Virus record (IMG/VR): IMGVR_UViG_3300043548_000837
Span: 1 to 64,000 of that record
DNA: 64,000 bases
Strand: one strand, 5' to 3'
Source of the DNA: a virus
The position numbers and the translations under genes are program-made. Within the stretch, counting starts at the first letter, position 1, and the number at the start of each line of letters is the position of its first letter. Below are positions 2-20,917 of this stretch, piece by piece. The notes beneath the pieces were generated by a model. That model made no database searches, was not told where the DNA came from, and saw only the letters and a program-made list of their open reading frames with translations.

Positions 2-268
2 CAAGGTACTCAGGGCACTCAGGGCACCCAAGGTGAGCAAGGTACTCAGGGCACTCAGGGCACACAAGGTGAACAGGGAACTCAAGGCCAGCAGGGCACA
101 CAAGGTGAGCAAGGTACTCAGGGCACACAAGGTGAACAGGGAACTCAAGGCCAGCAGGGCACCCAAGGTGAGCAAGGTACTCAGGGCCAGCAAGGCACCC
201 AGGGCACCCAAGGCACTCAAGGCACCCAAGGTGAACAGGGTACTCAAGGGCAACAAGGCGCTCAGGCC
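2..268 (+). repeat. Collagen-like 9-bp tandem repeat tract
   Basis: Degenerate tandem repeat of 9-bp units encoding Gly-Thr-Gln, Gly-Glu-Gln and Gly-Gln-Gln triplets. It lies inside the fibre gene and runs off the left edge. Such tracts commonly change length by recombination or slippage. Confidence 0.85.
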
Positions 269-952
269 ACTATCGTCGGAGGTACAACTCAAAAGATATG
301 GACTACATTAGCGAACACAAAAGAGTATGTAGGTATTACTGGTTATAACGGTAATGACCATAATGGCTATATTGTGAAACTCGGCGGTGTTATTCTTACT
401 GGAGGCCCTGGTAAATCTTACACAATTAGCGATAGTGGTAGTCCAAATGTCGGTAAGATTGTATTGGAAGAATTTCCGACTGCAGGATTTGAGCTCGAGG
501 TGCGCGCCCTCCAAATTGGAGCTAGTGCTGCCCCAACTGCAGGTACTCTTGCGGTACCTTTGATGGAAGTGGTGTCTCTTGGAGACGCTATTGGCGGAAA
601 CGTTGATCTAGACCTCGCTGTGAAGCAAGTGTATCTGTTTAATGCTGACGCTACATCAAACTTCACGCTCAATCTGAGAGCAAACACTTCGTCTAATCCA
701 CTTAACGGAAGACTTGCAGTGGGTAACTCTATATCGACTACGGTAGTTGTGAGAGAGGGAAGCTCTGTGAAAAGTCTGTCAGGTGTGAAGATCGACGAAG
801 AGGAGGTGACTGTGCAGTGGCAAGGCAATAACAGCAGCATGACTGCCAGCAAGTTAAATGTGATCAGTCTCACTGTAATCAAGAAGCAAGACACAGGTAC
901 AGTGAATGAGAAGTATATGGTTCTTGGCAGTGTTGCCACAGTCGGAGCCTAG
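2..952 (+). CDS. Collagen-like tail fibre protein, C-terminal part (5' end outside window)
   Basis: The reading frame is open from the left edge to a TAG at 950-952, so the start lies outside the window. The first ~89 residues are collagen-like G-X-Y triplets dominated by GTQ, GEQ and GQQ. They are followed by a ~225-residue C-terminal region rich in beta-strand-like sequence with no cysteine (TIVGGTTQKIW onward). Collagen-like stalks joined to a globular tip are typical of phage tail fibres and appendages, where the stalk trimerises and the tip binds the host. A hairpin terminator follows directly. The next genes also look like appendages. The fibre role is inferred from architecture; the globular domain was not matched to a named family. 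Confidence 0.8.
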   Translation, partial: QGTQGTQGTQGEQGTQGTQGTQGEQGTQGQQGTQGEQGTQGTQGEQGTQGQQGTQGEQGTQGQQGTQGTQGTQGTQGEQGTQGQQGAQATIVGGTTQKIWTTLANTKEYVGITGYNGNDHNGYIVKLGGVILTGGPGKSYTISDSGSPNVGKIVLEEFPTAGFELEVRALQIGASAAPTAGTLAVPLMEVVSLGDAIGGNVDLDLAVKQVYLFNADATSNFTLNLRANTSSNPLNGRLAVGNSISTTVVVREGSSVKSLSGVKIDEEEVTVQWQGNNSSMTASKLNVISLTVIKKQDTGTVNEKYMVLGSVATVGA

Positions 953-1667: not shown

Positions 1668-4565
1668 ATGAGCATTATCGCCAACACAGTAATTATCGGA
1701 AAAAGAAGTAAAAACAGCTCCAGCATTACAGCCACAACAGTGACTGTGGCTTCAGGTGGAATAAACGCCGCAACGGGATCAATTTCAGCCCAAAATGTAA
1801 CCATCGCTTCTGGAGGAAAAAACATGGGAGGGGTTACAGTCACAGGCGCTGTAATCCTTGACGGAGGAACTAACACTAGTTCTGCTACAATTACAGGCAA
1901 TCTCACAATTAATAGTGGCAATAGCGCGGCTGCGGTTACTGGGGATGTGCGTATGTCTGGTGGTACTAACACTGGAAATATTACAGGCAATCTTTATGTG
2001 TTGTCGAGCAGCGCAACGAACACAGCAGCTACAGTTACAGGCAATATTGTTTTAGCTAGTTCGGTAAATGCAGCCAGTGTTGTGCCTGCAGCATACACCG
2101 GCAATGTTATTCAAGTTGTCTCAGGAGCATTAAAGACTACAGGATACATGAGTGGAACTGCAGGTACTCCTACTACAGCTCCAGACGGAACATACTATAA
2201 TCTGGAGGGAGATTCTAAAGCTTACTCCTATACTTCAGGTGTTCCTGAATTGTTTGGAGGTACTGCCTATAACTTGCAGGGCGATTCTAAGGCTTACGCA
2301 TACACAGCTGGTGTTGGAGGGCTGTTTACAGGAAGTGCTTACAATCTTACAGGCGACAGCAAGGCATACAGTTGGACTGCTGGTGTCCGTGGGAGCTTGT
2401 TCACTGGTACACTAAACGGGGTTTCTTTCGTAGACGGGCTGGCTCAAGGAGGAGGAAGTACTTATAAAGAATACGACGTCACGTTCGAAGCTTCTACAGG
2501 GAAGCTCTATACAAACAACAATGACGATATTCTTACAGGAACTGTGTATTCTGATGATATATTAAGTATGCCATTTACAGGTGTCTTCCAATACAGCTCG
2601 ACTTGGTATTATGCTGATGCTGGCGTGGTTAATCTTTATAGGGCATGGGCTGTCGGTAATGATACAAACGCAGGAGTATTATACACTGCGGCTGCCGATA
2701 ACCTCGTTACAGGAACAGTTCGTACGAATACTGCATTAGATACTTCATATACTGGAGTGTATAGTTATGATAATGTGAATTATGCCGTCAATAACGGTGC
2801 AGATTATACTGGCGCAGTAGAATTCAGCTCAGAGTGGTTCACCGCAAGCAATCGAGTGATTAGTACAGATAAGGCTACAGGCGTCAGTCAGCCATTAGGC
2901 AGTTCGCTCTACTACAATTTTTTCGGTGACGGTACTGGCTCACTGTTTGACGGAGCAGTTCAAATAGAAAATAATTATATTGCGGTGGTTGCTGGGGTGC
3001 TTGGCGATCCTCAGGCTGACTTTGCTGATGGGGTGCAGTTACTTGCTGGTGACTCGAAGTACTATACTTTTAGCAGCAGTACTCCCTCTGCAGCAACTAT
3101 AGCCGATGGTAATATTTATATAGGTGCACTCAATAGATTCTATGTAATAGATAACGGCGTGAGAGGAAATTTATTTACCGGGGTGTTTAAAATTATCGAC
3201 CAAGAAATATATAGGGATGTTATTGAGGGTGTAACTCAAGAAACTGCGACGGCAGGTATACGTATTTTTGCTGACGATAACCTGTACTACAACTTCCCTG
3301 GGGACCAGTCAAAGCCAGCAAATCCGTTCAACGGCGCAATTCAGGTTGGGGACTACTGGTACTCTGTTACAGCTGGTGTGAGAGAAGCTACACCTACATT
3401 TAACGGAGTTATGAGAGGAGGAGGAGCTAACGCTTTTTATCGGGTAGATAATGGAGTAAATACTGGAATGACCCCTTACGGGATACATATGTTTGCTTAT
3501 GATAGCTTATATTATAACTACAGCGCACCTACCGTAAGTACACTAGTGTCAGCCGGAGCAGTGCAAATTGGATCCAGCTGGTACTCTATTACGGAGGGTG
3601 TTAGGGAAGCAACACCTACATTTACTGGGGTAGCCTTTTTTGTACACCCTGTGACAAACTCCAGCGGATACTGGTACATAACTAATGGCGTATTTGCTGA
3701 CAGTAACATTCCAAATGTACGCATGCTCGCCAGCAACGGACTATACTACAGTTTCCCTGGAAATGGGACTTTACCGACCAGCGTGTTTAATGGTGCGTTC
3801 ATGATAGAAGGCAGCTGGTATTCTGTCGTAGATGGTGTGAAAGAGGGAACAGCCACATTCAACGGGGCACGGTATGACGAATCCCAAGACAAATATTTCA
3901 GCGTCACTAATGGGTTATCTGATAACACCATCAACTATGCATCTGGCGCGCTCATGCTGGCTAGTGACGGACTATACTACAGTTTCCCTGGAAATGGGAA
4001 TCTGGGCACATTGCTTGATGGCGCAGTTCAGATTGGATCTAGCTGGTACTCTGTTACAGAGGGTGTTAGGGAAGCAACAGCCACATTTACTGGAGCTTAT
4101 TTTGACGGAGCTTTTTCTTATTGGAATATCGATGGAGGCCAGGCTTATCAACAAAACGCCTCAGGTGTGCGTAAATTAGCAAACGACGGCAAGTATTACA
4201 CCTTTCCTGGGAACGGTAGCGCCGGTGTACTGTTCACCGGTATTCTATCGACTAATCCTGTTATCAATAATTCTTTTAGCGGAGCACATGTCGGATATAT
4301 GGACGGTGTGGAGCATATATCTCAGGGATATGCGTGGACACAGCAGACAAGCTGCGATGACAATTCACAGAACGTCGTCTTTTTAAGTGAACAAAATCAG
4401 ATCAATATAAATGATAAAATGATAAAGATAGGTTATTTAGCCAACACAACTTTCATTCCAGAGGGAGAAAAAACAGGTTCTGTCTATTTTGGAGACTACC
4501 TGTACCATATTAGTGATGGGGTAATAGCCTCTAGCTCTCCGTGTGATCCATATAATGCAGACTAA
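1668..4565 (+). CDS. Large repetitive fibre/adhesin-like virion protein
   Basis: A 965-residue protein. Residues ~1-150 are rich in G, T, N and S with short V/I-T-x-N-G-type strands (such as VTGNIVL), suggesting a beta-helix or beta-solenoid. The remainder consists of repeats built around a Y-Y-x-F-P-G-x-G...W-Y-S-V-x-x-G-V-R-E-A-T-x-T-F-x-G pattern. Well-preserved copies begin near 3283, 3508, 3739 and 3970, giving a period of about 75-77 residues; shorter variants fill 2150-2420. No catalytic motif was seen. Size, repeats and position after a collagen-like fibre point to a long tail fibre or receptor-binding protein. A strong hairpin terminator follows. Confidence 0.65.
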   Translation: MSIIANTVIIGKRSKNSSSITATTVTVASGGINAATGSISAQNVTIASGGKNMGGVTVTGAVILDGGTNTSSATITGNLTINSGNSAAAVTGDVRMSGGTNTGNITGNLYVLSSSATNTAATVTGNIVLASSVNAASVVPAAYTGNVIQVVSGALKTTGYMSGTAGTPTTAPDGTYYNLEGDSKAYSYTSGVPELFGGTAYNLQGDSKAYAYTAGVGGLFTGSAYNLTGDSKAYSWTAGVRGSLFTGTLNGVSFVDGLAQGGGSTYKEYDVTFEASTGKLYTNNNDDILTGTVYSDDILSMPFTGVFQYSSTWYYADAGVVNLYRAWAVGNDTNAGVLYTAAADNLVTGTVRTNTALDTSYTGVYSYDNVNYAVNNGADYTGAVEFSSEWFTASNRVISTDKATGVSQPLGSSLYYNFFGDGTGSLFDGAVQIENNYIAVVAGVLGDPQADFADGVQLLAGDSKYYTFSSSTPSAATIADGNIYIGALNRFYVIDNGVRGNLFTGVFKIIDQEIYRDVIEGVTQETATAGIRIFADDNLYYNFPGDQSKPANPFNGAIQVGDYWYSVTAGVREATPTFNGVMRGGGANAFYRVDNGVNTGMTPYGIHMFAYDSLYYNYSAPTVSTLVSAGAVQIGSSWYSITEGVREATPTFTGVAFFVHPVTNSSGYWYITNGVFADSNIPNVRMLASNGLYYSFPGNGTLPTSVFNGAFMIEGSWYSVVDGVKEGTATFNGARYDESQDKYFSVTNGLSDNTINYASGALMLASDGLYYSFPGNGNLGTLLDGAVQIGSSWYSVTEGVREATATFTGAYFDGAFSYWNIDGGQAYQQNASGVRKLANDGKYYTFPGNGSAGVLFTGILSTNPVINNSFSGAHVGYMDGVEHISQGYAWTQQTSCDDNSQNVVFLSEQNQININDKMIKIGYLANTTFIPEGEKTGSVYFGDYLYHISDGVIASSSPCDPYNAD
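3283..4215 (+). repeat. Tandem ~230-bp coding repeats in the fibre gene
   Basis: Four recognisable units start near 3283, 3508, 3739 and 3970, with a partial fifth near 4192. Each encodes L-Y-Y-x-F-P-G ... W-Y-S-V-x-x-G-V-x-E-A-T-x-T-F-x-G. Two units share the long identical stretch GGACTATACTACAGTTTCCC at DNA level, which suggests recent duplication. Confidence 0.7.
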
Positions 4566-4640: not shown

Positions 4641-6854
4641 ATGCGCCTCAGTATCCCTAAAAAAATAAAAGAAGAGCTGCAAAATATCGCAGAGGTTTTT
4701 GTAGAGTATAACGATACTTCTAAGAATTCTGTAGATGTCTTCAGCTTCGGTGTAAGCAAACTCCATTTTGAAAAAATGGATTTTGTTAATATGGCTGACT
4801 CGTCGTGGCAGAACTGTTCGTTTGTCAGGTACAGGTTGAAATATTTAGACGGTAGAGAAGAGGTTTTAAGGTTTGAAAGTAAAGAAAGTGCAAAATACGG
4901 AGCATTAAACGATTTGGGTGTTTTTTTAGATGGGAAAGAAATAAAGGTAGGTTCTTTTTTTGCCCCGTGCGAAGCCTCAAAAGACATAGCTAACAATAAC
5001 TTATTTTCTTTCAAAAGCATTAAAGATATACCAGCTTATGTAATTAATCTAGACTCGGACTACTCCAGGTACCTAGAAGTAGTTCGAGAATTAACTGAGT
5101 TAGGCTTTTCTAATCTACATAGATGGAATGCTGTGGATACGCGCGAAGACGGAGGAATAGCTAGGCTTAAACGTTACGGTGTAGAATCTCTCACAGAATT
5201 TTATAGCTATGGCGCTGCAGGATGTACTGTGTCGCATCTAAATCTTTATGAAGATTTTTTAAAAAGTGAAGATCAATTTAGGTTAGTGTTCGAAGATGAT
5301 GTTACTGCGCACTCTAAATTTCATGAACTTATTAGCAGCGTTAATAATCTTTCTCTAGACAGTTTTGACGTACTTTTTCTGGGTGGTTGGTTCTGGGGTT
5401 TCGGTGAAAAAGACATAATTAAAGATGTAACTAAGGCTCTAGAGCTTGCAGGAGAAACTTGTCTTCTGAGGAATCCTACAAGCTTTGAAACGCATGCAAT
5501 GTTAATCAGTAGAAGATTTGCATTTAAAGCTGTAGATAACTATAGACGATGGATATCAAAGGGAGGCCTAACTATCGACACCTACATTACCCAAAGCAAA
5601 TATTTCGATAAGTGTTTGCTTACGTTTTCTCCTTTCGATTCAGCTAACGTAGATAAGCTGCAGCTAAGAAACATGAATAACTGCGGTTTGTTTTTCCAAA
5701 AAAACATTTACGGAAGCCATCTACAAAAAAAGAGTGTTCAGGGCATAAAAGAAATTAAAAGAGAAGAATCTGGAGGATATTGGCATAAAGTTCTTCCTCA
5801 AGAAGAATACCGCTTTGATAAATTCAATGTGTATGGTGAGAGTGCTTTACTGCAGCCCATAACTATGCCTGAAGTTGGCGTACTCGTACTTGAGGGAGGT
5901 ATCTTATCTTCTTACGGTGTAGTTGGAACCAAAGAAGAAAGATGGGTATCAGACCTTTCATGGTTCGGATCTCCTATCGGCAGAGGTTTAGACGTTTGGG
6001 AGACTATGTTTAAGCAGAAAAAAAAGAATAACTGTTTCTCTGCGGAAAACTTGATCGTTAAAAAAGGTTCTGCGTTGAACCTGTGTGCTGTCTGGAGCCA
6101 ATTTAATCCAGGGCACTTTCAAATGGATTCGTTGGGTATGCTTGCTCTAGCTATCGACGGAGACTTAAAACAGCTAGATGATTTTGACTGGATATGCTTG
6201 CCGCGTATTGAAATTAGAATTAAAAAAGACTTATTAGCTCTAATTGACATAGATCCAAGCAAATTGATTGAACTTCTGCCTGGAGAGTTTTATCAGTTTG
6301 ATGAATTGCATGCTCCTTCACTGTACGGGGCACCTGAGAGATACCGTAGGGGAGCCTTCAGACACATACGTAACCTTTTTAAAACTAAGCCAAAAAAAAG
6401 TTTAAATAAACTTATTTATGTCTCTCGTGAAGAAGCAGGGAGGGACGTTAGTAATTTGACTGAGCTTGAAGAACTGCTACATGATTACGGGTTTCAAAAA
6501 ATATCTTCAAAGAGTTTGAGAAACTATGTAAATATTTTTGCTGAAGCTTTGATTGTTGTGGGTGCGCATGGTGCAGGTTTGTCAAATTGTATGTTTTGCT
6601 CTCCTGCGGCTACTTTGATTGAACTTTTGCCTGAGTTTCACCAAAAACCTTATTATATGAGTTTAGCTGACTCTGTAGGTATGGACTATGTAGGTATATT
6701 GTGTACTGATGCAGGGTTAACTGTACCCACGACCTCTTATGCCGTAAATAAAGAAAAAAGATTTATAGTTAATCTAAATCTACTGGAGGGAACTATTAAT
6801 GGAGTCTTACACAAAAAGCTGCAGAAAACTGCATATAAGTCATGGCTTAGGTGA
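4641..6854 (+). CDS. Bifunctional glycosyltransferase: GT25-like domain fused to GT61-like domain
   Basis: A 737-residue protein. Residues ~130-330 match glycosyltransferase family 25 (LPS-type): an A-Y-V-I-N-L-D start, G-A-A-G-C-T-V-S-H-L in the middle and a V-F-E-D-D-V acidic metal-binding motif. Residues ~450-720 resemble GT61 (DUF563): H-F-Q-M-D, then Y-V-S-R-E-E-A-G-R and the V-G-A-H-G-A-G-L-S-N signature before L-I-E-L-L-P. The first ~125 residues are unassigned. Families GT25 and GT61 transfer sugars from nucleotide donors. Here the likely target is a virion protein or host surface glycan, judging from the adjacent fibre genes. Substrate and linkage cannot be read from sequence. The 3' end overlaps the next gene by 56 bases. 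Confidence 0.8.
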   Translation: MRLSIPKKIKEELQNIAEVFVEYNDTSKNSVDVFSFGVSKLHFEKMDFVNMADSSWQNCSFVRYRLKYLDGREEVLRFESKESAKYGALNDLGVFLDGKEIKVGSFFAPCEASKDIANNNLFSFKSIKDIPAYVINLDSDYSRYLEVVRELTELGFSNLHRWNAVDTREDGGIARLKRYGVESLTEFYSYGAAGCTVSHLNLYEDFLKSEDQFRLVFEDDVTAHSKFHELISSVNNLSLDSFDVLFLGGWFWGFGEKDIIKDVTKALELAGETCLLRNPTSFETHAMLISRRFAFKAVDNYRRWISKGGLTIDTYITQSKYFDKCLLTFSPFDSANVDKLQLRNMNNCGLFFQKNIYGSHLQKKSVQGIKEIKREESGGYWHKVLPQEEYRFDKFNVYGESALLQPITMPEVGVLVLEGGILSSYGVVGTKEERWVSDLSWFGSPIGRGLDVWETMFKQKKKNNCFSAENLIVKKGSALNLCAVWSQFNPGHFQMDSLGMLALAIDGDLKQLDDFDWICLPRIEIRIKKDLLALIDIDPSKLIELLPGEFYQFDELHAPSLYGAPERYRRGAFRHIRNLFKTKPKKSLNKLIYVSREEAGRDVSNLTELEELLHDYGFQKISSKSLRNYVNIFAEALIVVGAHGAGLSNCMFCSPAATLIELLPEFHQKPYYMSLADSVGMDYVGILCTDAGLTVPTTSYAVNKEKRFIVNLNLLEGTINGVLHKKLQKTAYKSWLR

Positions 6855-7650
6855 TTGCTTGCGCAAGTTACTGCTAGACTTTAAAGTTCCTAGCTATAAT
6901 AAAAGTACAGGAGGAACAGTCTATACTTCTTTTGAATTTAGAGACCGTGTTAAACCTGCAGAATGGGAACTTAATAACTCTTCTGTAATTTGCGACTTTA
7001 TAAACAACGTAGCAGGAATAAAATTTATCTCTTGGGAAGAATATATAAAGCTACCCATACCTTTATTGACTTCAGGCGAAACTAGACACCTTGAGATGGC
7101 TCCTTTTTATTTAAAGGCCGACAAACTGCCTATATTGCATCACGAAAGCAAAAAAAACATAGCTATACAATCTAGAGGAGGAGGGTACGATACCTCACCT
7201 AAACAGTTTTCTTATGATATGATTGTCAGCCTCGTAGAGGCACTAGACGCGACAATATACGATATACATATAATAGATATGTCTCGAGGAAGCTATGTTA
7301 GTGAGCTAAAAAATGTATTAAATTGCTACAGTAATGTGTATTTTTACAACCATTCTTTTTTGCAAAACTATGCATTGGTTTCTTTGTGTGATGGACTTAT
7401 CGCTCCAGATTCTTGGTCAAAATATGTACTCAATGCCTCAGGGCAGGACCTTAATAAAATAATCGTATGCACACAGTTAGACTACGTAAGCTGCAAAGAA
7501 CAACTATTAAAGACTTACTTCAAGCAGCTAGTGAATCCACGTACCAGAATTTTAGGGTATGCAGCTAATGGTGAAGCTATACCCAATGTAGCTGCTTTGG
7601 ATATGTGCGATATGCTGGGCGAGTTGACAAAAATGTTGGCTAGTATTTAA
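6799..7650 (+). CDS. Putative GT-B (GT9-like) glycosyltransferase or ADP-heptose-type protein
   Basis: A 283-residue protein. The ATG at 6799 is preceded by a good ribosome-binding site (GGAGG at 6786-6790), so the 56-base overlap with the upstream gene is likely real. Visible features are H-G-L-G-D-C-L-R near the N-terminus, I-A-I-Q-S-R-G-G-G mid-protein and L-C-D-G-L-I-A-P-D-S-W-S-K-Y near residue 205. The last resembles the acceptor-side loop of heptosyltransferase-like GT9 proteins (G-x-D-S-G/W). The family assignment is tentative. Location between GT25-GT61 and a sulfotransferase supports a glycan-related job. Confidence 0.5.
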   Translation: MESYTKSCRKLHISHGLGDCLRKLLLDFKVPSYNKSTGGTVYTSFEFRDRVKPAEWELNNSSVICDFINNVAGIKFISWEEYIKLPIPLLTSGETRHLEMAPFYLKADKLPILHHESKKNIAIQSRGGGYDTSPKQFSYDMIVSLVEALDATIYDIHIIDMSRGSYVSELKNVLNCYSNVYFYNHSFLQNYALVSLCDGLIAPDSWSKYVLNASGQDLNKIIVCTQLDYVSCKEQLLKTYFKQLVNPRTRILGYAANGEAIPNVAALDMCDMLGELTKMLASI

Positions 7651-8245
7651 AACCAAACAGTTCAATATCTGACAGGTATAGTTTATATATTTTGTAAAAA
7701 GTCTTATTATTGTAGTAGTCTCGATAATCTTGAGACTTTCTAGTGCTTGCGTTTACTTTTTTTAGCCCTGGAAAAATCCTTTTAAATTCTCTGTCTGTAG
7801 ATAACTGGGAGCTGTAAAACACACGATCTACTAAGATTTTGTGCTCAGAGTCGCACAAGAAATGCACTTGAGGTTTCCACCCAGGATGCTTTAAAGAAGA
7901 CAAAGATTCAGAAGCTAGATCTACCGCATCTTCAAAAGACATGTTTTTGACTGTTTTGAAGTCAGGGTGCTCGGCATATTTTGTTGTACCGTCACTTGAA
8001 TGCCAATAGCTTTTCTCCATTTTAGCGTACTCAAAGTTAGAGACAAATCTATCCCACGGGTTTCTAACTATAGAATATTTTGAATAGTTTACCCATAACG
8101 CAGGAAAGATACGCCGCATTTCAGATGCTGGACGGTGAGAGCTGTCGCGATCTTCAAAAGCAAAGTCCTCTAAAGAGAGTAAGGATGTGCCTGCGTTTTT
8201 GGGTACGTGAATAAATATTATTTTATGTTTGTGAGAAAACGGCAT
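7640..8245 (-). CDS. Sulfotransferase family 2-like protein
   Basis: A 201-residue protein on the minus strand, converging on the previous gene with an 11-base overlap of 3' ends. I-F-I-H-V-P-K-N-A-G-T-S near the N-terminus is the 5'-phosphosulfate (PAPS) loop, and S-I-V-R-N-P-W-D-R-F-V-S is the 3'-phosphate-binding motif. These are the hallmarks of the Sulfotransfer_2 (carbohydrate sulfotransferase) fold. The C-terminal V-N-A-S...Q-D-Y-R-D-Y-Y-N stretch is also typical of this family in bacteria and phages. It would transfer sulfate from PAPS to a sugar hydroxyl. The target is unknown; the glycosyltransferase neighbours suggest sulfated glycans on virion fibres or host surface. Confidence 0.8.
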   Translation of the reverse strand: MPFSHKHKIIFIHVPKNAGTSLLSLEDFAFEDRDSSHRPASEMRRIFPALWVNYSKYSIVRNPWDRFVSNFEYAKMEKSYWHSSDGTTKYAEHPDFKTVKNMSFEDAVDLASESLSSLKHPGWKPQVHFLCDSEHKILVDRVFYSSQLSTDREFKRIFPGLKKVNASTRKSQDYRDYYNNKTFYKIYKLYLSDIELFGFKY

Positions 8246-8267: not shown

Positions 8268-8537
8268 ATGTTTAATTTTAAGTCTAACTCTAGAGAGCAT
8301 CAAGATCTATTTATCCTAACAGTACTGAACAAAAAGGAAAGGGGTACTTATTTGGAAATAGGTGCCGGTTCATATGTTTACGGAAGCAACACTTATCTAT
8401 TTGAAAAAGAGTTTAATTGGACTGGGGTGTCGTTAGACCTTAATGAAGAAGAAAAAGCTAAATTTAAACGAGAAAGAACTAACCCTTATTTGTTGTTTTT
8501 CCACAATTCTGTTGCAGCTACACTGTGTTTTGTGTAG
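8268..8537 (+). pseudogene. FkbM-type methyltransferase, N-terminal remnant
   Basis: An 89-residue ORF. G-T-Y-L-E-I-G-A-G-S...S-N-T-Y-L-F-E-K-E-F-N-W-T-G-V-S-L-D matches the SAM-binding start of FkbM-family methyltransferases. The family normally runs ~200 residues or more, but here it ends soon after R-T-N-P-Y with an unrelated tail, H-N-S-V-A-A-T-L-C-F-V. The catalytic and C-terminal half is absent and was not found downstream. The break coincides with the left arm of a 15-bp inverted repeat (8529-8583), suggesting a deletion or insertion event. Likely non-functional, although a short SAM-binding protein cannot be excluded. Confidence 0.6.
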
Positions 8538-8833: not shown

Positions 8834-10012
8834 ATGAAGCTATCTCTATTCAGCCCTACCAATAATGTTGAATGGTTAGATATGCCCTATAACTCCATCA
8901 AGAAGCAGATCATCCTCGATCCGCTTCTTGATGTTGAGTGGGTAATCGTACCAAACAATAACGTAGAAATCCCAGCGCATATAGCTAACGAGCCCTGGGT
9001 TAAGATCTATCGTTGCCCTAGCAGTCTGAAAAATATTGGTGCCCTTAAAAGATTTGCATGCGAACGCGCTACAGGAGACGTGTTTATCGAGATGGATCAT
9101 GACGACGAGCTTTTACCGGGCTCATTGCGGCGCATTCATGAAGAAATGAAGGATAAGCCGAACAGTTTTCTTTACTCCGACAAAACTGTAAGAAGGCATG
9201 ATGGTGAAGAGCAATACTATGGCCCTGCCTGGGGATGGGAACATTACATGTGGAATGGTCAGAGAATTAATAAGGGTTTTTTACCAGACGCCAGATCATT
9301 ATGTCAGATTTTCTACGCTCCCGACCATGTGCGTGTTTGGTCTAGACAGGCATATGAACTCAGCGGAGGACATGACCCAAATCTGTTCGTGGCGGACGAT
9401 CATGCGCTAGTCATTAAAACATACCTGGCAGGAAGTGAATTCATCTTCATTGATGAGCCTATGTACAACTACTTCATCCACGGTAACAATTCGTGGCTTT
9501 TGAATTGTGATGAAGTACAAGCCAAACAAAAAGATAATACAGAAAAGCACTTAAGGTCGCTGGTCTTTGAATGGTGTCGGAGAGAGAACCTGCAAATTGT
9601 TAGCTACCCTTCCGAGCAGTTTAACATAGCTGAAGAAAACTCCATAGGTTGTATCATTGCCAACGATACGTTGGCATCTATTCCTGCAGGACAGCCTGTA
9701 ATTGACTTCATGAATCTTGCATACATCAAGCTCGCCCCTCAAGGCTGGCTATTGGTAGATGTTCCCTCGAGTGAGGGTAAGGGAGCGTTCTGCGACCCTA
9801 TGCATCTATCTTTCTGGAACGACTTGAGTTTTAGGTACTATACCGACAAGAACTATTCGAGGTTTATTCCTTCATATAAAGGAAGATTTCAGGAAGTTGT
9901 ACTGAAGACGTACATGCCTAGTGATTGGCATAAAGAAAACAACGTACCTTATGTTCGCTGCGATATGAGTGCTTTAAAAGGGCAGCGTCAGGCTGGCTGG
10001 CAATATATCTAA
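8834..10012 (+). CDS. GT2 glycosyltransferase fused to a degenerate methyltransferase-like domain
   Basis: A 392-residue protein. The N-terminal ~230 residues look like a GT-A family 2 transferase: A-L-K-R-F-A-C-E-R-A-T-G-D-V-F-I-E-M-D-H-D-D-E-L carries the metal-binding D-x-D, and A-D-D-H-A-L-V follows at the catalytic-base position. The C-terminal ~130 residues have the V-I-D-F-M-N-L-A-Y-I-K-L-A-P-Q-G-W and G-A-F-C-D-P-M-H-L-S-F-W-N motifs. These occur in the second half of methyltransferase-11-like proteins, but the glycine-rich SAM-binding loop is not visible. A fused or remnant methyltransferase domain is likely. Spacing to the next gene is one base (TAATATG). Confidence 0.7.
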   Translation: MKLSLFSPTNNVEWLDMPYNSIKKQIILDPLLDVEWVIVPNNNVEIPAHIANEPWVKIYRCPSSLKNIGALKRFACERATGDVFIEMDHDDELLPGSLRRIHEEMKDKPNSFLYSDKTVRRHDGEEQYYGPAWGWEHYMWNGQRINKGFLPDARSLCQIFYAPDHVRVWSRQAYELSGGHDPNLFVADDHALVIKTYLAGSEFIFIDEPMYNYFIHGNNSWLLNCDEVQAKQKDNTEKHLRSLVFEWCRRENLQIVSYPSEQFNIAEENSIGCIIANDTLASIPAGQPVIDFMNLAYIKLAPQGWLLVDVPSSEGKGAFCDPMHLSFWNDLSFRYYTDKNYSRFIPSYKGRFQEVVLKTYMPSDWHKENNVPYVRCDMSALKGQRQAGWQYI

Positions 10013-10013
10013 T

Positions 10014-10631
10014 ATGACACCTAAAGTAGCTGTTATTACGCCCACATATAAAAGAGACAGTAAAACATTACACAGATGCATCAGATCTGTCTTGTGGCAG
10101 TCTTACTGGAACACATCACACTATATTTGTCACGATGGTCCGTGGCTTGAAGATGAAGCTGTGGAACTTCTTCGTGAAGAGTATCATCTTGTGAATTGGA
10201 TGAATACTCCTTCTAGAACAAACTCATATGGGGCAGGAGTGCGTCAGTATGTAATGGATAATCTGCCTGAGGATATTGACTACATCGTGCATCTGGATGA
10301 CGACAATGTGATTTTTCCTGACTTTGTCGAAGAGCATGTGATGTGTCTGGAGAATCATCCTGAAGTGGACTTCTCTATATGTAGGATAACTCACAATGGA
10401 CCTTTACCTGCACACATGGGAGCTGCACCTAAAGTAATTACAGGAGTTCCCCCAGTGTTTAGAAACATTGACACGCTTCAAATAATGGTTAGAACTAAAG
10501 CAATGAAAACCTGCGGCTGGAGTCAATACACTGGACAGCAAGGATACTGCAACGACGGTTACACATATCAAAGACTCGGTGAAATGTTTCGCTGGATCGA
10601 ACTACCTAAACTATTAGCAATACATATTTAA
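10014..10631 (+). CDS. GT2 family glycosyltransferase
   Basis: A 205-residue protein beginning P-K-V-A-V-I-T-P-T-Y-K-R, the nucleotide-sugar-binding start of GT-A family 2 enzymes. D-Y-I-V-H-L-D-D-D-N-V-I supplies the DxD-type metal site near residue 95. It is shorter than most GT2 enzymes but complete enough to be a single catalytic domain. It is the third consecutive glycan enzyme on this strand, with only one base before and after to its neighbours, implying translational coupling. Acceptor unknown. Confidence 0.8.
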   Translation: MTPKVAVITPTYKRDSKTLHRCIRSVLWQSYWNTSHYICHDGPWLEDEAVELLREEYHLVNWMNTPSRTNSYGAGVRQYVMDNLPEDIDYIVHLDDDNVIFPDFVEEHVMCLENHPEVDFSICRITHNGPLPAHMGAAPKVITGVPPVFRNIDTLQIMVRTKAMKTCGWSQYTGQQGYCNDGYTYQRLGEMFRWIELPKLLAIHI

Positions 10632-10632
10632 T

Positions 10633-13600
10633 ATGGAGCATTTTTATAATTTTTTACCTGGAGAAAACTGGTTCGACTACCTGGAACTATATGGGGAGGT
10701 TGTTACCTCTGCTTCAAATGGTGCGCATTTCGTAGAGGTAGGTACCTGGAAAGGTAGAAGTGCATGCTACATGGCCGTAGAGATTGTTAACTCAGGCAAA
10801 CAAATACGTTTTGATTGTGTTGACACCTGGAAGCCTATAATCACAGAAAAGGCTATACCTGTAGAGAGGTACGAAGAGCTATATAGTGCTTTTTTAAAAA
10901 ATATTTCTCCTGTTGCAGCATATATAAATCCTGTGCAAGCCATTTCTTGGGAAGCGGCTGAGCTTTACCCTGACGAAAGTTTAGACTTTGTATTTATTGA
11001 TGCCGCGCATGACTATGAAAGCGTAAAAAAAGACATAGCTGCCTGGTACCCTAAAGTCAAAAGAACAGGAATAATTGCTGGGCACGATTATCACAACAGT
11101 GTTGGCGTAGCTAGCGCAGTGCATGAATTTTTTAAAGGTAGGCACGCAGTGATAGATAAAAATCCCTGCTGGTATGTTTCGCGTAAGGATAGTCTGTTCT
11201 CTGTTGTGGTTCCTACAATGTGGAAAAGTGGAACGACACGTACATTACTTGAGTCTTTGGAAGACTGCACTGCAGTTGGTGAAATATTCATAATTAATAA
11301 TTCTTTAGAGACAGTTCCTGACTATCTTGAAAAGTTGTCAAAAGTAACGCTGTACAGTTCAGAAAAAAACAATTACGTGAACCCTAGCTGGAACATCGGA
11401 GTTAAAAATTGTAAATACGGCTTGGTGGCCTTGTGTAATGATGATATTATATTTAATCCAAATATTTTTAAATATTTGACAATACAGGACGACACACTAA
11501 TTGGACTGGATGCTAGTTGCTATTCACTAGACACTGATTCTGAAAAGCTTCAGATTACATCAGTCAATCACAGAAATTATGGATTTGGTTGTTTGATGTG
11601 TTTCAAGAAGAAAGACTATAAAGCCATACCAGAGCAACTCAAAATATGGTACGGTGACGATTATTTATTCTCAACATTTAAGAACACTTTTGCTTTGTGT
11701 GGGGTGGCTGTAAATACATCAATGAGTACTACATCTAAAAGCTCAGAGTTTACAGCTATTATTGAGCAGGACAAAAGTGTTTATGCTGCGTTGGACAGAA
11801 TCAAACTAATTGATTGCTTTTTGTATAACGGAGAAGCGAGGATGTTAGCGTTTAGGTTAGAAGAACTCTACTCTGTTGTAGACTATTTCGTAATCGTTGA
11901 GTCCTTATACACATTTAAAGGAACACCTAAAGAGCTAAAATTTAATATACAGGATTATCAAAAATTTAGAGATAAGATTATTTTTATACCTTGTGATATT
12001 CCTCCGGTAATGGATGCTTGGCAGAACGAGACGAACCAGAGGCGTCATTTGAAGACAGGCCTCACAAACCTCTCTCTCAAATCTACAGATTTGTTGTTGT
12101 TGTCTGATGTAGATGAAATACCAGACACTCGAGAGCTTCAAAACTATAAATTAAATGGATTAATCCGTGCTGCAGTATTTAATCAAAATTTTTATTATTA
12201 TAACTATAACTGCCGGAATGTTAAGAAGTGGCCTGGCTCCGTACTATTAAACCTAGAGGTGTTTAAAAATGAGTTCTGTAGCGATTTTGAGCTGGTTCGC
12301 AAATCTCGACACGATTTACCTAAAATAGGTAATGATTACAACTCTGGCGGATGGCACTTTTCCTATTTTGGTGACATAGATTACATCGTTAATAAGATAC
12401 AGGAGTTTTCTCATCAGGAGTATAATGACTCGAAATACACAAATAGAGATAGCATTATAAAGTTGATGCTTGCAGGAAAAGACTTGTTTTTGCGACCTGA
12501 CGAAAAATTTGAAAGAGTTGAAAACCAGCAATATCTTCCAAACAGCATAAGTCTTTTATCTGATGAAAAGGCGATTGCCGATAACTTAACCTTTATTGTT
12601 GCTGTGCAATTAGACTGTGCAGACAGGCTTGACAATTTAGATATAACTCTGAATGCTATTAGACAAAAATTTCCATCAAGTCAGACTATTTTACTTGAGG
12701 CAGACCTTTCCGATAAACTGTCAGGTAGATACTCTTGGATTTCTCACTTTTTTATTAAATTAGAGCCTTTTGAACTGTTTAATAAAATGAAACTCTATAA
12801 TCAAGGAGCACAGCTCGCAACCAATAAAGTTCTATGCTTTGTGGATGTAGATGTGCTTCCCGGGGGGAGTGCTGTTTCGCAGGCCTGTAAGCTTATAACA
12901 GAAAATATCTACGATGTAGTATATCCTTATGGTGTATCTGAGGGCTACGATATACCAAAACAATTACACGCAAAAGTGGCTAGCGATGTGGATGTTTTTA
13001 ATTATGATGAAAAAAAACACCCTTGGCTTTTAAAGGAATACAGAATCCCTTACGTGGAAAGTGGTGGACTAATTGTTTGCTCTAGAGCTTCTTATTTTTC
13101 TGTAGGTGGAGGCAATGAAAATTTTACCGGCTGGGGCTGCGAAGATGACGAAATGCTTCATAGGTTTGCTGCATTGGGCTATAGAATAGGGAGGTTGGAT
13201 GAGGCTATACTTCTACATCTAAGACATCGTCGTTGGGCAAATCCTGGGTGGCACGACTTTGCTAAATATGAAGCAGCTAACAGAGAAAGGCTAGCTCACG
13301 TGAAAAGCATGACCAAAGAGCAGCTACTTGAAATGACTCAAGCCTGGAATAATTTTAAAAAGACTGAAAAGGATCTCACGGTCATTATTTCAGGCAGCTA
13401 CCTAGATTCGCATCCTAGCATCACATTCATGCGGGAGGTTGTCGAGTCGTTGGAACTTACAGGTATACCTCACAGCGCTCCATTAATTTTGGCACACGAT
13501 AAAATTAAACCAGGTATCGAAGGTTTTGTAGAAAAAGAAAAAGCCTATCAAGAGTACTTCAATAACCTTGAAGAGTACGCCAAATCTTCAAAGTTCAAAA

Positions 13601-14130
13601 ATATCACAATATCTCAAGCACCAGAATGGGGGCATTTGACAAGAACGCTCAAGCATGCTGTGTCTCAAGTAAAAACCAAGTACATGCTTGTGTTGCAGCA
13701 CGACATTCATATTCGAAGAGAGATTCCTGTAATGAAGATGATCGACTTGATGGAGAAGCACGAACACATCAAACATCTCAGATTTAATGTACGCAGAAAT
13801 CATCCTACCTTTATGTGGTGGGACGGCTATCAAGGAGGTAAAACTCTTTTTAATGAAGAAGAGTACGATGGAGTTAAACTTTGCGTTACTCCTGCATGGA
13901 GCGACCAGAATCATTTGGCGACTAAAGAGTATTACGAAACTGTAGTATTCCCAGACTGCACCAATCCTGACGGTGAGCTTATTTGGGACTTCATGGAGAA
14001 TCGTATGAACGGATTGTGTCACCACAATCATTCTAGGTACGGCACGTATATCTACGGAGAGTATGGAGCACCCAGAACAAGCAGACACTCAGACGGAAGA
14101 AAGAGTTCTCCTGAGCCTGACGAAGACTAG
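10633..14130 (+). CDS. Five-domain protein: methyltransferase plus four glycosyltransferase-like domains
   Basis: A 1165-residue protein. Residues ~25-180 are a class I SAM methyltransferase (F-V-E-V-G-T-W-K-G-R-S, then D-F-V-F-I-D-A-A-H-D-Y). Residues ~195-340 are GT2-like (S-V-V-V-P-T-M, A-L-C-N-D-D-I). Residues ~390-640 match GT17 (L-I-D-C-F-L-Y-N-G-E, L-L-L-S-D-V-D-E-I-P-D). Residues ~650-890 are GT-A with a galactosyltransferase-type C-terminus (F-V-D-V-D-V, G-W-G-C-E-D-D-E-M). Residues ~920-1165 are a further GT-like domain (V-L-Q-H-D-I-H-I). The ORF is uninterrupted. It could assemble several steps of one glycan on a single polypeptide, probably for virion proteins; that role is inferred. 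Domain borders are approximate. Confidence 0.75.
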   Translation: MEHFYNFLPGENWFDYLELYGEVVTSASNGAHFVEVGTWKGRSACYMAVEIVNSGKQIRFDCVDTWKPIITEKAIPVERYEELYSAFLKNISPVAAYINPVQAISWEAAELYPDESLDFVFIDAAHDYESVKKDIAAWYPKVKRTGIIAGHDYHNSVGVASAVHEFFKGRHAVIDKNPCWYVSRKDSLFSVVVPTMWKSGTTRTLLESLEDCTAVGEIFIINNSLETVPDYLEKLSKVTLYSSEKNNYVNPSWNIGVKNCKYGLVALCNDDIIFNPNIFKYLTIQDDTLIGLDASCYSLDTDSEKLQITSVNHRNYGFGCLMCFKKKDYKAIPEQLKIWYGDDYLFSTFKNTFALCGVAVNTSMSTTSKSSEFTAIIEQDKSVYAALDRIKLIDCFLYNGEARMLAFRLEELYSVVDYFVIVESLYTFKGTPKELKFNIQDYQKFRDKIIFIPCDIPPVMDAWQNETNQRRHLKTGLTNLSLKSTDLLLLSDVDEIPDTRELQNYKLNGLIRAAVFNQNFYYYNYNCRNVKKWPGSVLLNLEVFKNEFCSDFELVRKSRHDLPKIGNDYNSGGWHFSYFGDIDYIVNKIQEFSHQEYNDSKYTNRDSIIKLMLAGKDLFLRPDEKFERVENQQYLPNSISLLSDEKAIADNLTFIVAVQLDCADRLDNLDITLNAIRQKFPSSQTILLEADLSDKLSGRYSWISHFFIKLEPFELFNKMKLYNQGAQLATNKVLCFVDVDVLPGGSAVSQACKLITENIYDVVYPYGVSEGYDIPKQLHAKVASDVDVFNYDEKKHPWLLKEYRIPYVESGGLIVCSRASYFSVGGGNENFTGWGCEDDEMLHRFAALGYRIGRLDEAILLHLRHRRWANPGWHDFAKYEAANRERLAHVKSMTKEQLLEMTQAWNNFKKTEKDLTVIISGSYLDSHPSITFMREVVESLELTGIPHSAPLILAHDKIKPGIEGFVEKEKAYQEYFNNLEEYAKSSKFKNITISQAPEWGHLTRTLKHAVSQVKTKYMLVLQHDIHIRREIPVMKMIDLMEKHEHIKHLRFNVRRNHPTFMWWDGYQGGKTLFNEEEYDGVKLCVTPAWSDQNHLATKEYYETVVFPDCTNPDGELIWDFMENRMNGLCHHNHSRYGTYIYGEYGAPRTSRHSDGRKSSPEPDED

Positions 14131-17317: not shown

Positions 17318-17857
17318 CTACTTTGTGTAGCAGTCGAAGTATCTGGCAAGCAAATGAAGGAAGTCGCTGAGCCTGTTGATGTATTTCAAGAGCACAGGTC
17401 TAGCCTCAGTATTCTCAGCAGCCATTGCAGATAAAAAAGCTCTCTCTGAGCGCCTGCATACTTTAGCTGCGAAATCTGAGAGAGAGCCTAGCTTTGTTTC
17501 TCCATACAATACCCAGCCTTGTTGATCTAGGTCAGGGTTGTCTTGAAGCTCGTCTACTTTAGTATCTAACGTTTCCAAATCGGCGTCCTTGATATGGTCA
17601 TATTTTTCAACATACTCAGTGCGCTTGTCTGCCTCAGCGGCAATCTCTCCCATGAATAGCGTCAGCTTGTGTTGAATTTCAGCAATGAAGCCTCTGTAGG
17701 CTTTATATTTAACTAGCTCGGCCTTGAGTAGGCCTAGAGCCGCGTTGAGCTCATCAATGTCGCCCACAGCGTTTATTATGGCTGTATACTTGAATTCTCT
17801 TGTACCGAAGAGTCTGCCTGTTTTTCCTTTGTCTCCTGACTTTGTGGCTATTTTCAT
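17318..17857 (-). CDS. ATP:cob(I)alamin adenosyltransferase, PduO type
   Basis: A 179-residue protein. I chose the ATG at 17857, preceded by GAGAGG, over an in-frame TTG at 17878. T-K-S-G-D-K-G-K-T-G-R-L-F-G at the N-terminus is the ATP-binding loop of PduO-type adenosyltransferases. D-E-L-N-A-A-L-G and the C-terminal C-R-R-S-E-R...Y-I-N-R-L-S-D-F-L-H-L-L-A-R are the other family signatures. The enzyme transfers adenosyl from ATP to cob(I)alamin, making coenzyme B12. A B12-dependent ribonucleotide reductase lies 1.2 kb away, so it probably secures the cofactor for phage dNTP synthesis. Confidence 0.9.
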   Translation of the reverse strand: MKIATKSGDKGKTGRLFGTREFKYTAIINAVGDIDELNAALGLLKAELVKYKAYRGFIAEIQHKLTLFMGEIAAEADKRTEYVEKYDHIKDADLETLDTKVDELQDNPDLDQQGWVLYGETKLGSLSDFAAKVCRRSERAFLSAMAAENTEARPVLLKYINRLSDFLHLLARYFDCYTK

Positions 17858-17913
17858 ACTCACATAACTACCTCTCAAACCTTTGGTGGTTAGAGATTCT
17901 TTAAGTTAATTGG

Positions 17914-17919: not shown

Positions 17920-17925
17920 ATATTG

Positions 17926-18963
17926 ATGGAAGCTAACAGCTATTCCACGACAAAGCCTGTCTCACAGGTAACCAGCGGAGTTGAATCCGCTAAAATTAGC
18001 CGCATCATCACACATAGTGGTCCCTTCCACTGTGACGATGTCTTTGCGGTAGCTTGTTTTAAGTTACTGGATCCTGGTGTTGAGGTGGTGCGTACGCGGG
18101 ACCAGGGTTTGCTGGCTGCAGGAAACCTTGACCCGCAAACGGCGTTGGTAGACGTGGGCGGTGAGTTCAACCCTGCCAACCTGGCATTTGACCACCACTT
18201 TGTGGGGTCTCCAGTCAGGGAGAACGGCGTGCCTTACGCGGCTTTCGGGATGGTAGCGGAGTATCTGTACCCGGAGCAGCTACGTAATTCAGAGGGCTTT
18301 TATCAGCTGGTCACTGCAATTGATTGCTCAGACAATGGAGTCAAACAACCAGGGTGGTCGCTGTCTAAGACAGTGCATAAGTGCAATCCAGTCAACAGCC
18401 ATGCGTTCGATGACCGGTTTAAATCGCTGGTCGAGATCGCTAGACAGATCATTCAAGGAGTATTTGAGCAAGAGTACTCTCTTGAGTTTGCTGCCGGGAG
18501 GCTGGAATCTCATCCCTTGGTGGTAGACTGGGTCGAAGAGCATGACGAAGCATTAAAAGCTTCGGAAACTAGAGTACGCACTGCTTTTGAGCAGGAGGGT
18601 CCATTGCTACTGCTAGAGCAGTATGAGCCTGCGTTGATGGATACCGCTGATGAAGCGCCTATCGACAAACTGTTCTCCATCTATCCTTCTCCGTCAGGGG
18701 AGTGGATGGTGCAACAGATCCCTGCTTCAAAGGGCTCGTTTGAGGGAAGAAAAAAGCTGCCTGCTCACTGGGCAGGTAAGAGAGGTGAAGATCTCAACGC
18801 TCTCTCACTGGTAGAGGGATGCGTGTTCTGCCACCCTGGTCGGTTTATCTGCGGCAACAAAACACGCGAAGGAGCTGTAGAGATGGCCAAACTCGCGGTG
18901 TTCTTTGCCACCCTTCCCTCTAACAATGAGCACGTCCCTTCGTCAGGGCAAGTGTGCGCTTAA
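17926..18963 (+). CDS. MYG1-family (UPF0160) DHH-type phosphoesterase/exonuclease
   Basis: A 345-residue protein. I chose the ATG at 17926 over the adjacent TTG. I-I-T-H-S-G-P-F-H-C-D-D-V-F-A, A-L-V-D-V-G-G and L-A-F-D-H-H-F are the metal-binding motifs of the MYG1/UPF0160 family, a branch of the DHH phosphoesterases. In eukaryotes MYG1 is a 3'-5' RNA exonuclease. Length matches the full family, and the C-terminal region with C-V-F-C-H-P-G-R-F-I-C-G also fits. In the phage it could degrade RNA or recycle nucleotides; the substrate is inferred, not shown. Flanked by the two B12-related genes on the opposite strand, with a bidirectional terminator at its end. Confidence 0.85.
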   Translation: MEANSYSTTKPVSQVTSGVESAKISRIITHSGPFHCDDVFAVACFKLLDPGVEVVRTRDQGLLAAGNLDPQTALVDVGGEFNPANLAFDHHFVGSPVRENGVPYAAFGMVAEYLYPEQLRNSEGFYQLVTAIDCSDNGVKQPGWSLSKTVHKCNPVNSHAFDDRFKSLVEIARQIIQGVFEQEYSLEFAAGRLESHPLVVDWVEEHDEALKASETRVRTAFEQEGPLLLLEQYEPALMDTADEAPIDKLFSIYPSPSGEWMVQQIPASKGSFEGRKKLPAHWAGKRGEDLNALSLVEGCVFCHPGRFICGNKTREGAVEMAKLAVFFATLPSNNEHVPSSGQVCA

Positions 18964-19066: not shown

Positions 19067-20917
19067 TTAGATTTCTAGGCTGCATGCACCACCAGCGCAA
19101 GCAACTTCACCTTTGAAATCTGTATTATCTTTTCTCTCCTTGATATCTTCGAACCTATAGTCTTCAGCAATTAGGTTGAAGGCTTTTTCCAGAACTTCAA
19201 AGACCTCAGGATGCGGCGGCTGACTATAAGGCAGGTATTTATAATCACCCCCATCATATGGAATGAGACTAATACCATAATAAGAATCTCTGTTTTCCAG
19301 CATCCAGCGCTTGATGCTTTCTTTTTCGTGCTCATGGTAGTTGATTGTGAGACTGATGTTGTGCGTGTTTGGTCCTTCGAGGTGGCCAGGAACAATCCAG
19401 CTATCGTACAAATCTTTCACACGCTCCAGGCACTGTACAGCTGTTTCTTGGCTGCGTAGCAATGTGGTATCGTAAAGCTTGATAGGTACCTGCATAATCA
19501 TATCGTTGTTGTTAAACGGATCGTCTACAACGAAGGCGGGGAACTTTTTAGCTAGAGACTTGGCGAGCGCACTATGCTTATCCATACGCACTCTACGAAC
19601 ATAGCGCACTTCGTGCCCTGCATGAACTCCTGCAGTTGTACCTAACCAAGAGCTGCTGGTACCTGAGGGTTTGGTTGTAGTAATCCTTCGAGCTGGACGA
19701 ATACCCAACTTGGCTGCCCAGACCTTGTTTACTTCTACTGCAGTAATTGCTCCTTCTTTAAGGTTTTCAGGAGTCAATATTGCTTGGGCTTCTGCTTGGC
19801 CAGTAATACTGACACCAAGCAAAGCTTCTTCATCCGCATTCTTTTTCCACTCAGGTTGAACATACTGGAAGTCTGTATATGTGGCCTGAAGCGTTCCGAT
19901 AATGGTGGCACTGATGACTGCTTTGAGCCAATCGTCTTTACTGAAGCACTGAGCAGCATTGATCTCGGTGAGATTGCACACACCCATACTCTTGAGCGCA
20001 ATCTCATGGCACGGGTTGAAGCCCATCTCGTCATCGTTAGTTAAAGATAGCCCTGGCTCTGCTTGCCCTCCAGCAAAGCAAGCATCAATAATCTTTGCGC
20101 CTACCTGATTGAAGTTAGGGTCGTCTTTGCGCAGCACGGCAGAGTTGTTTGCTCTGGCTAGCTCGGGATACTTCTCCCACCATGCTCCAGCCTTGCAGTT
20201 CAAGAGTTCTTCATCGTCGGCGTCAAACAAGCTGATTAATGCTCCGCGACGTACACCACCAACAACAACACAGTCAGCGATCAAACAGGAAATTCTGTGA
20301 CACTCGAACGGTGTAAGCTGTCTGCTGCTAGCTTTACGCAGAATAGCTCTAACGTTAGCATGCATCTTTACAAGAGCTTTAGGTCCGCTAGCTGTTCCTC
20401 CTGTAGACAACGGAGCACCCATTGGGCGAATCTGAGTATAGTCGAACTGCAAATCAGGATTTGCAAAAAGGGCGAGCAAACTATCACACCAACCTTCCGC
20501 AGAGTCGTTGATGATATATGGAGCTTCTACAGAGCCTTCAGGAATAGTTGGAAGCTGCCCAATGTGCCTCTTCTTAACACTGAAGCCTACACCCACACCA
20601 CTCATACTCATATAGAACAGGTCGGCAAAGTCTTTGAACTTTGTGATGTTGATGAAGCTGCAGTTGAACATTCTGTTGTTTCTGCGCTCGATAGCTTCAC
20701 CAGCGAACTGGAAACTTCTCATCGAAGGAACTACACGACCAGCAAACACTTGTTCATACGCTTTTTCAATAGCCTCTGCATGATTAGGAAACTTACGAAT
20801 ATGCATGTCCATATTCCTTTTAATTGTTTCCTCTCTAGTCTCTCTACGAAGCTCTTCAGGAAGATACTTTGCGTAAGTTCTGTAGTGTACTAGTTTACTT
20901 AGGAATTCTTTACTCAT
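19067..20917 (-). CDS. nrdJ: Adenosylcobalamin-dependent ribonucleoside-triphosphate reductase (class II)
   Basis: A 616-residue protein. V-V-P-S-M-R-S-F-Q-F-A-G and N-R-M-F-N-C-S-F near the N-terminus, G-F-N-P-C-H-E-I-A-L (active-site cysteine near residue 300), and K-P-S-G-T-S-S-S-W-L-G are signatures of the monomeric class II enzyme typified by Lactobacillus leichmannii RTPR. The C-terminal C-A-G-G-A-C-S-L-E-I supplies the redox-active cysteine pair. It converts NTPs to dNTPs using an adenosylcobalamin-generated thiyl radical and works with or without oxygen. It is a convergent neighbour of the MYG1-like gene; dCMP deaminase lies upstream, forming a nucleotide module. Confidence 0.93.
   Translation of the reverse strand: MSKEFLSKLVHYRTYAKYLPEELRRETREETIKRNMDMHIRKFPNHAEAIEKAYEQVFAGRVVPSMRSFQFAGEAIERRNNRMFNCSFINITKFKDFADLFYMSMSGVGVGFSVKKRHIGQLPTIPEGSVEAPYIINDSAEGWCDSLLALFANPDLQFDYTQIRPMGAPLSTGGTASGPKALVKMHANVRAILRKASSRQLTPFECHRISCLIADCVVVGGVRRGALISLFDADDEELLNCKAGAWWEKYPELARANNSAVLRKDDPNFNQVGAKIIDACFAGGQAEPGLSLTNDDEMGFNPCHEIALKSMGVCNLTEINAAQCFSKDDWLKAVISATIIGTLQATYTDFQYVQPEWKKNADEEALLGVSITGQAEAQAILTPENLKEGAITAVEVNKVWAAKLGIRPARRITTTKPSGTSSSWLGTTAGVHAGHEVRYVRRVRMDKHSALAKSLAKKFPAFVVDDPFNNNDMIMQVPIKLYDTTLLRSQETAVQCLERVKDLYDSWIVPGHLEGPNTHNISLTINYHEHEKESIKRWMLENRDSYYGISLIPYDGGDYKYLPYSQPPHPEVFEVLEKAFNLIAEDYRFEDIKERKDNTDFKGEVACAGGACSLEI

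Follow-up and report, generated by a model that had tools for sequence, protein, structure and literature searches.

A five-domain methyltransferase and glycosyltransferase chain in a tailed phage, probably joined from separate glycan-cluster genes

Introduction

Can a phage build and methylate a glycan with a single polypeptide? This question is raised by a long gene on the virus record IMGVR_UViG_3300043548_000837, of which positions 1 to 64,000 were analysed here (the window). The initial annotation had described a protein carrying a methyltransferase and several glycosyltransferase-like domains that resembled an assembly line for one glycan, and this description is backed by domain matches, by conserved motifs and by the occurrence of most modules as free enzymes in similar clusters. 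We consider it probable that the gene encodes a soluble single-chain enzyme, joined from whole genes, that puts together a short glycan and O-methylates it, with a virion protein as the likeliest acceptor. The sequences show the fused frame, four family assignments, conserved motifs and relatives that are separate or reordered; what each module does, in which order they act, which sugar is methylated and what the target is are inferred.

The open frame and the record that carries it

10633 to 14130, plus strand: five-domain methyltransferase/glycosyltransferase chain of 1165 residues (open frame; Pfam and PHROG matches)

The gene is a single open frame without an internal stop, and it is equally uninterrupted in the full 87,059-bp virus record, so that the coordinates, the length of 1165 residues and the continuity given in the initial annotation all hold, both by translation and on the whole record. 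An assembly artefact is an unlikely source of such a frame, and a chance open reading frame was dropped as an explanation because of the family matches described below. No hydrophobic segment of membrane-span length was found along the chain, which fits a cytosolic enzyme, although its product may instead lie on the host surface or be free.

The record encodes homologues of tail sheath and tape-measure proteins and of the RNA polymerase beta subunit, and so belongs to a tailed phage that carries RNA polymerase genes itself. The 87-kb record is a fragment. It starts within a collagen-like gene (window positions 2-952), and its other end cuts a large protein of 1451 residues or more, in which repeated immunoglobulin-like sequence can be seen by eye (L005:6705-11057). 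Further along the window, a cobalamin adenosyltransferase gene (17318-17878, minus strand; Pfam E 7e-37) lies about 1.2 kb from what appears by eye to be a ribonucleotide reductase gene (19067-20917, minus strand), and together they perhaps represent a B12-dependent nucleotide pathway of the phage. A MYG1/UPF0160 family protein, unexpected in a phage, is encoded at 17923-18963 on the plus strand (Pfam E 1e-49).

Domains of the chain

10633 to 11190, plus strand: domain 1, Methyltransf_24 SAM-dependent methyltransferase, residues 1-186 (Pfam)
11191 to 11796, plus strand: domain 2, GT2-like, residues 187-388, NDD at 269-271 (Pfam)
11797 to 12570, plus strand: domain 3, GT17, residues 389-646, SDVDEIPD at 491-498 and GGWHFSYFG at 572-580 (Pfam)
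12571 to 13377, plus strand: domain 4, Glyco_transf_7C/galactosyltransferase-like, residues 647-915, DVDV at 738-741 and GWGCEDDE at 833-840 (Pfam, PHROG and PDB)
13375 to 14127, plus strand: domain 5, without an assigned family and weakly indicated as GT-A-like, residues 915-1165, QHD at 1022-1024 (relatives in L006 and L047/L208; partial fold match)

A methyltransferase and four glycosyltransferase-like domains had been proposed, with a domain search of each segment as the check. Judged against the gathering cut-offs of Pfam, that search assigned four of the five domains, namely Methyltransf_24, GT2, GT17 and Glyco_transf_7C (GT7C), while the fifth (residues ~915-1165) matched no Pfam family. 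The motifs FVEVGTWKGRS, NDDI, SDVDEIPD, GGWHFSYFG, DVDV, GWGCEDDE and LHLRH are present, as would be expected of active enzymes.

The Methyltransf_24 match covers residues 34-153 (E 9e-18, 65.5 bits against a cut-off of 26.3) and includes the SAM-binding motif FVEVGTWKGRS at residues 33-43. Domain 1 is 43-51% identical to free-standing phage proteins, and its neighbours in the PDB are the O-methyltransferases 6g7d (E 4e-6), which we take to be a mycobacterial methylmannoside O-methyltransferase, 2hnk and, weakly, NovP (2wk1). These nearest structures and the cluster context suggest a sugar as the methyl acceptor. Domain 2 matches GT2 (PF00535) over residues 190-277 (E 5e-10, 39.9 bits against 23.3) and shares 31-37% identity with free-standing phage proteins, in which NDDI is invariant.

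The proposed GT17-like segment is matched by Pfam GT17 (PF04724) over residues 391-621, with E 3e-26 and 92.8 bits against a cut-off of 26. Its D-x-D-E and GWHFS motifs, SDVDEIPD and GGWHFSYFG, line up across 17 phage sequences related to GT17; such relatives were found at 39 loci in IMG/VR, and six turned up when bacterial and archaeal genomes were scanned. The animal member of GT17 has GlcNAc-transferase activity. Domain 4 matches Glyco_transf_7C (PF02709) over residues 802-865 (E 7e-14, 51.6 bits against 23), is widened by phrog_15655 to residues 651-915 (E 2e-29) and matches beta-1,4-galactosyltransferase 1 in the PDB (E 2e-6). Both GT7-type motifs, DVD and WGxEDD, occur in it as DVDV and GWGCEDDE. 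The latter had been placed at the end of the protein; as it lies at residues 833-840 of 1165, the galactosyltransferase-type motif is not terminal.

The glycan cluster and the likely target

2 to 952, plus strand: collagen-like protein, candidate acceptor (inferred role), cut by the record start (Gly-X-Y triplets)
1668 to 4565, plus strand: repetitive fibre-like protein of 965 residues, candidate acceptor (inferred role; repeats in translation)
4641 to 6854, plus strand: GT25-GT61 fused glycosyltransferase gene (Pfam GT61 E 3e-17, GT25 E 3e-11)
6799 to 7650, plus strand: cluster gene of 283 residues (no family above cut-off)
7640 to 8245, minus strand: sulfotransferase family gene (Pfam Sulfotransfer_2 E 7e-12; phrog_3347)
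8834 to 10012, plus strand: GT2 gene, perhaps with a methyltransferase part at its C terminus (Pfam GT2 E 3e-7; Methyltransf_23 E 0.16)
10014 to 10631, plus strand: GT2 gene ending one base before the chain (Pfam E 9e-9)

The chain is separated by one base from the GT2 gene before it, and that gene by one base from its own upstream neighbour. Most of the cluster described in the initial annotation was recovered: Pfam matched both families of the GT25-GT61 gene and the GT2 gene at 10014-10631, and the sulfotransferase family was confirmed, on the opposite strand. For the proposed GT2-methyltransferase the GT2 part stood and the methyltransferase part was weak (E 0.16), whereas the label 'GT-B-like' for 6799-7650 was backed by neither Pfam nor PHROG. 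To the eye, an 89-residue frame at 8268-8537 on the plus strand opens as a methyltransferase gene would (TYLEIGAGSYVYGSNTYLFEKEFNWTGVSLD) before it meets stop codons; it has no Pfam match and is possibly a gene remnant within the cluster. Among the proteins scanned, a subset of the genes of this fragment record, no nucleotide-sugar synthesis gene was recognised. The protein at 2-952 has 29 Gly-X-Y triplets at 5-265, mostly GTQ and GEQ, and the 965-residue repetitive protein matched no Pfam or PHROG family.

In the proposed mechanism, the chain would stay in the host cytoplasm, where its glycosyltransferase modules would add sugars in series from nucleotide-sugars. The modules would be an O-methyltransferase, a GT2 enzyme, a GT17 enzyme, a GT7C/galactosyltransferase-like enzyme and a divergent GT-A-like transferase, with the methyltransferase methylating one sugar, perhaps as a cap. 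The glycan would most likely be attached to a virion protein, for which the neighbouring collagen-like protein, rich in Thr, and the repetitive fibre protein are candidates. What points to a virion target, perhaps the Gly-Thr-Gln collagen-like fibre, is a single observation, the nearness of fibre and collagen-like genes; a literature search on phage virion glycosylation returned nothing decisive. Sulfation of such a glycan, suggested as a possibility in the initial annotation, is conjectural.

Gly-X-Thr arrays occurred in 8 of 41 GT17-bearing records and in 3 of 50 records chosen by the methyltransferase or GT2, a difference that is not significant (P 0.06, or 0.17 with near-duplicates removed) and whose comparison set is not a neutral control, as it includes a few records that have GT17-related genes of their own or lie in glycan clusters. 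Moreover, the collagen-like array of the window places Thr at another triplet position. The link between GT17 and collagen-like proteins is suggestive at most. In several phages, collagen-like Gly-X-Y proteins, with up to 56 triplets per run, were also seen no more than about 10 kb from GT17 genes (L034:3277-7044, and in L016, L019, L024 and L027).

The main competing explanation, which we regard as unlikely, is that the chain alters a surface polysaccharide of the host (O-antigen or capsule), for example to block other phages. Such a role has been put forward for the glycosyltransferase clusters of jumbo cyanophages (PMC7824862), and cyanophage proteins in the phage collection include relatives of domain 4. 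Furthermore, in the 735-kb phage LR756501 the methyltransferase lies beside GDP-mannose dehydratase, aminotransferase and formyltransferase genes. However, no lipid-carrier transferase, flippase or membrane glycosyltransferase was recognised in the cluster, the chain itself has no membrane-span-like segment, and the cluster adjoins fibre-like genes.

Probable origin by gene fusion

As part of the same explanation, the gene probably arose by head-to-tail joining of complete glycan-cluster genes. The first three modules are each known elsewhere as separate proteins of comparable length, mostly about 181-209 residues for the methyltransferase, 201-238 for GT2 and 249-283 for GT17, and the junctions of the chain coincide with the starts and stops of such stand-alone proteins. 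Free methyltransferases stop close to CWVFVKK, which corresponds to CWYVSRK-DSL-FSVVVPT in the chain; free GT17 proteins start M-KIIDCF, where the chain has IKLIDCF. At the GT7C junction the chain reads IADNLTF, without a start codon, and the corresponding protein of the syntenic relative L006 starts MINGITF. That 522-residue protein consists only of the half of the chain made up of GT7C and the C-terminal domain, is preceded by a separate GT25 gene and is followed by genes that match those of the window up to PhoH and beyond.

Other arrangements are found among other phages. Tandem gene pairs were counted as GT17 then GT2 (nine), methyltransferase then GT2 (six) and methyltransferase then GT17 (four), some of these loci being near-duplicates. 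The same families are also fused in other order and content, as in a 1096-residue phage protein (L137:3301-6588; GT17-GT2/GT7C-GT25-MT24), a 1070-residue protein (L030; GT17-MT24-GTB-MT24) and the shorter combinations MT24-GT17 (L015), GT2...GT17 (L033) and GT17-GTB (L034, L035 and L044). Across the phage collection and 205 gathered loci, the five-domain order was found in the window only. Similarly, a whole-protein scan of IMG/VR returned no relative, no record of the phage collection covered 80% of the chain in one place, and tblastn against phages covered at most 26% of it among the matches listed.

The C-terminal domain and the activity of the modules

Identity between the window and L006 is 86-87% in the C-terminal domain, 57% in GT7C, 81% in PhoH and 48-61% in the remaining flanking genes, a comparison of two sequences only. 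With synonymous sites at or close to saturation, so high an identity in the C-terminal domain reflects constraint more than recent transfer.

No relative of domain 5 was found in the bacterial and archaeal genomes scanned. A search profile built from these two sequences matched free-standing proteins of 261 residues in two other phage records (L047/L208), weakly (E 5e-4 and 6e-4 per record; 1.5e-5 and 3.3e-5 among local ORFs). Domain 5 is collinear with these relatives over most of its length (VLQHDIHIRREI against IFWEHDWILKREI), and NTP-transferase and methyltransferase genes lie close to one of the two. A weak match to phrog_3692 'glycosyltransferase' was also obtained (E 0.008). The AlphaFold model of domain 5, from a four-row alignment, has an overall pLDDT of 50.8, with the first ~110 residues at roughly 50-80 in beta-alpha-beta order and poor values beyond; a model of GT7C plus the C-terminal domain from two rows reached 34. 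Foldseek matched the domain 5 model to RmlT, ppGalNAc-T1 and GtrB over ~110-150 residues (probability 0.95-1.00, E 0.005-0.014), with sugar nucleotidyltransferases ranked above them. Our best guess from this low-confidence fold match and weak homology is that domain 5 may be GT-A-like.

It is rather improbable that some modules are inactive or merely bind the acceptor, the fusion mainly keeping one or two activities together or reflecting a recent, nearly neutral joining. The far greater divergence of GT7C than of domain 5 between relatives (57% against 86%), a fusion known from one genome and the lack of a family for domain 5 would suit such a history, but each of the four assigned domains has retained motifs of the catalytic type and the same families have been fused repeatedly in several phages. 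Finally, modification of phage DNA by base glycosylation or methylation, suggested by the PHROGs name 'DNA methyltransferase' for the methyltransferase family, is highly improbable, and the DNA-methylase reading was rejected, since domain 1 lacks a D/N-P-P-Y/W motif and matches O-methyltransferase structures, its free-standing copies are located in glycan clusters, and GT17 and GT7C are not known to be DNA glycosyltransferases.

Comparison with known multi-domain enzymes

The closest functional parallels to a serially acting chain come from chloroviruses. PBCV-1 A064R, of 638 residues, combines two rhamnosyltransferases with an O-2 methyltransferase (PMC7826918). Like A064R, the present protein is a viral single chain in which glycosyltransferase domains and a sugar O-methyltransferase are predicted to act serially on one glycan, and at least two glycosyltransferase domains are joined to a methyltransferase in both; A064R differs in coming from an algal virus and in having three domains, the methyltransferase last. 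Among the PDB sequence matches of the chain with E up to 1, there was no PBCV-1 protein. A111/114R of the same virus has three glycosyltransferase domains (PMC7826918) and is likewise a virus-encoded multi-glycosyltransferase chain, serving the capsid glycan, but it has no methyltransferase domain and acts on algal-virus N-glycans.

In domain layout the chain also resembles Geobacillus WsaE, in which an N-terminal methyltransferase precedes two glycosyltransferase domains (PMC2943079). Both are soluble, the present chain by prediction, whereas WsaE works on a lipid carrier, in the S-layer pathway of a bacterium, and its two glycosyltransferases are rhamnosyltransferases. An analogy for the proposed target is offered by SgtA/BclA3 of C. 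difficile, where the product of an adjacent glycosyltransferase gene glycosylates Thr of a collagen-like protein (PMC7157674). There too a glycosyltransferase gene lies beside a collagen-like gene, but a single glycosyltransferase, a spore protein and Gly-Pro-Thr repeats are involved.

Conclusions

The gene is a real, well-delimited and unusual fusion. The families of four of its modules are already known, as are multi-domain viral glycosyltransferase/methyltransferase enzymes, from chloroviruses; a limited literature search found no comparable multi-domain chain in bacteriophages. As a tentative extension, doubtful at present, the five-step chain might make and methylate a whole oligosaccharide on Thr-rich collagen-like virion fibres, with the C-terminal domain as a new glycosyltransferase family performing a strongly constrained step. 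That domain is of interest as an unclassified domain conserved more strongly than its neighbours. If the chain works as proposed, phages, like chloroviruses, would assemble a methylated oligosaccharide by means of a single polypeptide, and the stand-alone, tandem and fused forms in different phages would show directly how phage glycans diversify.
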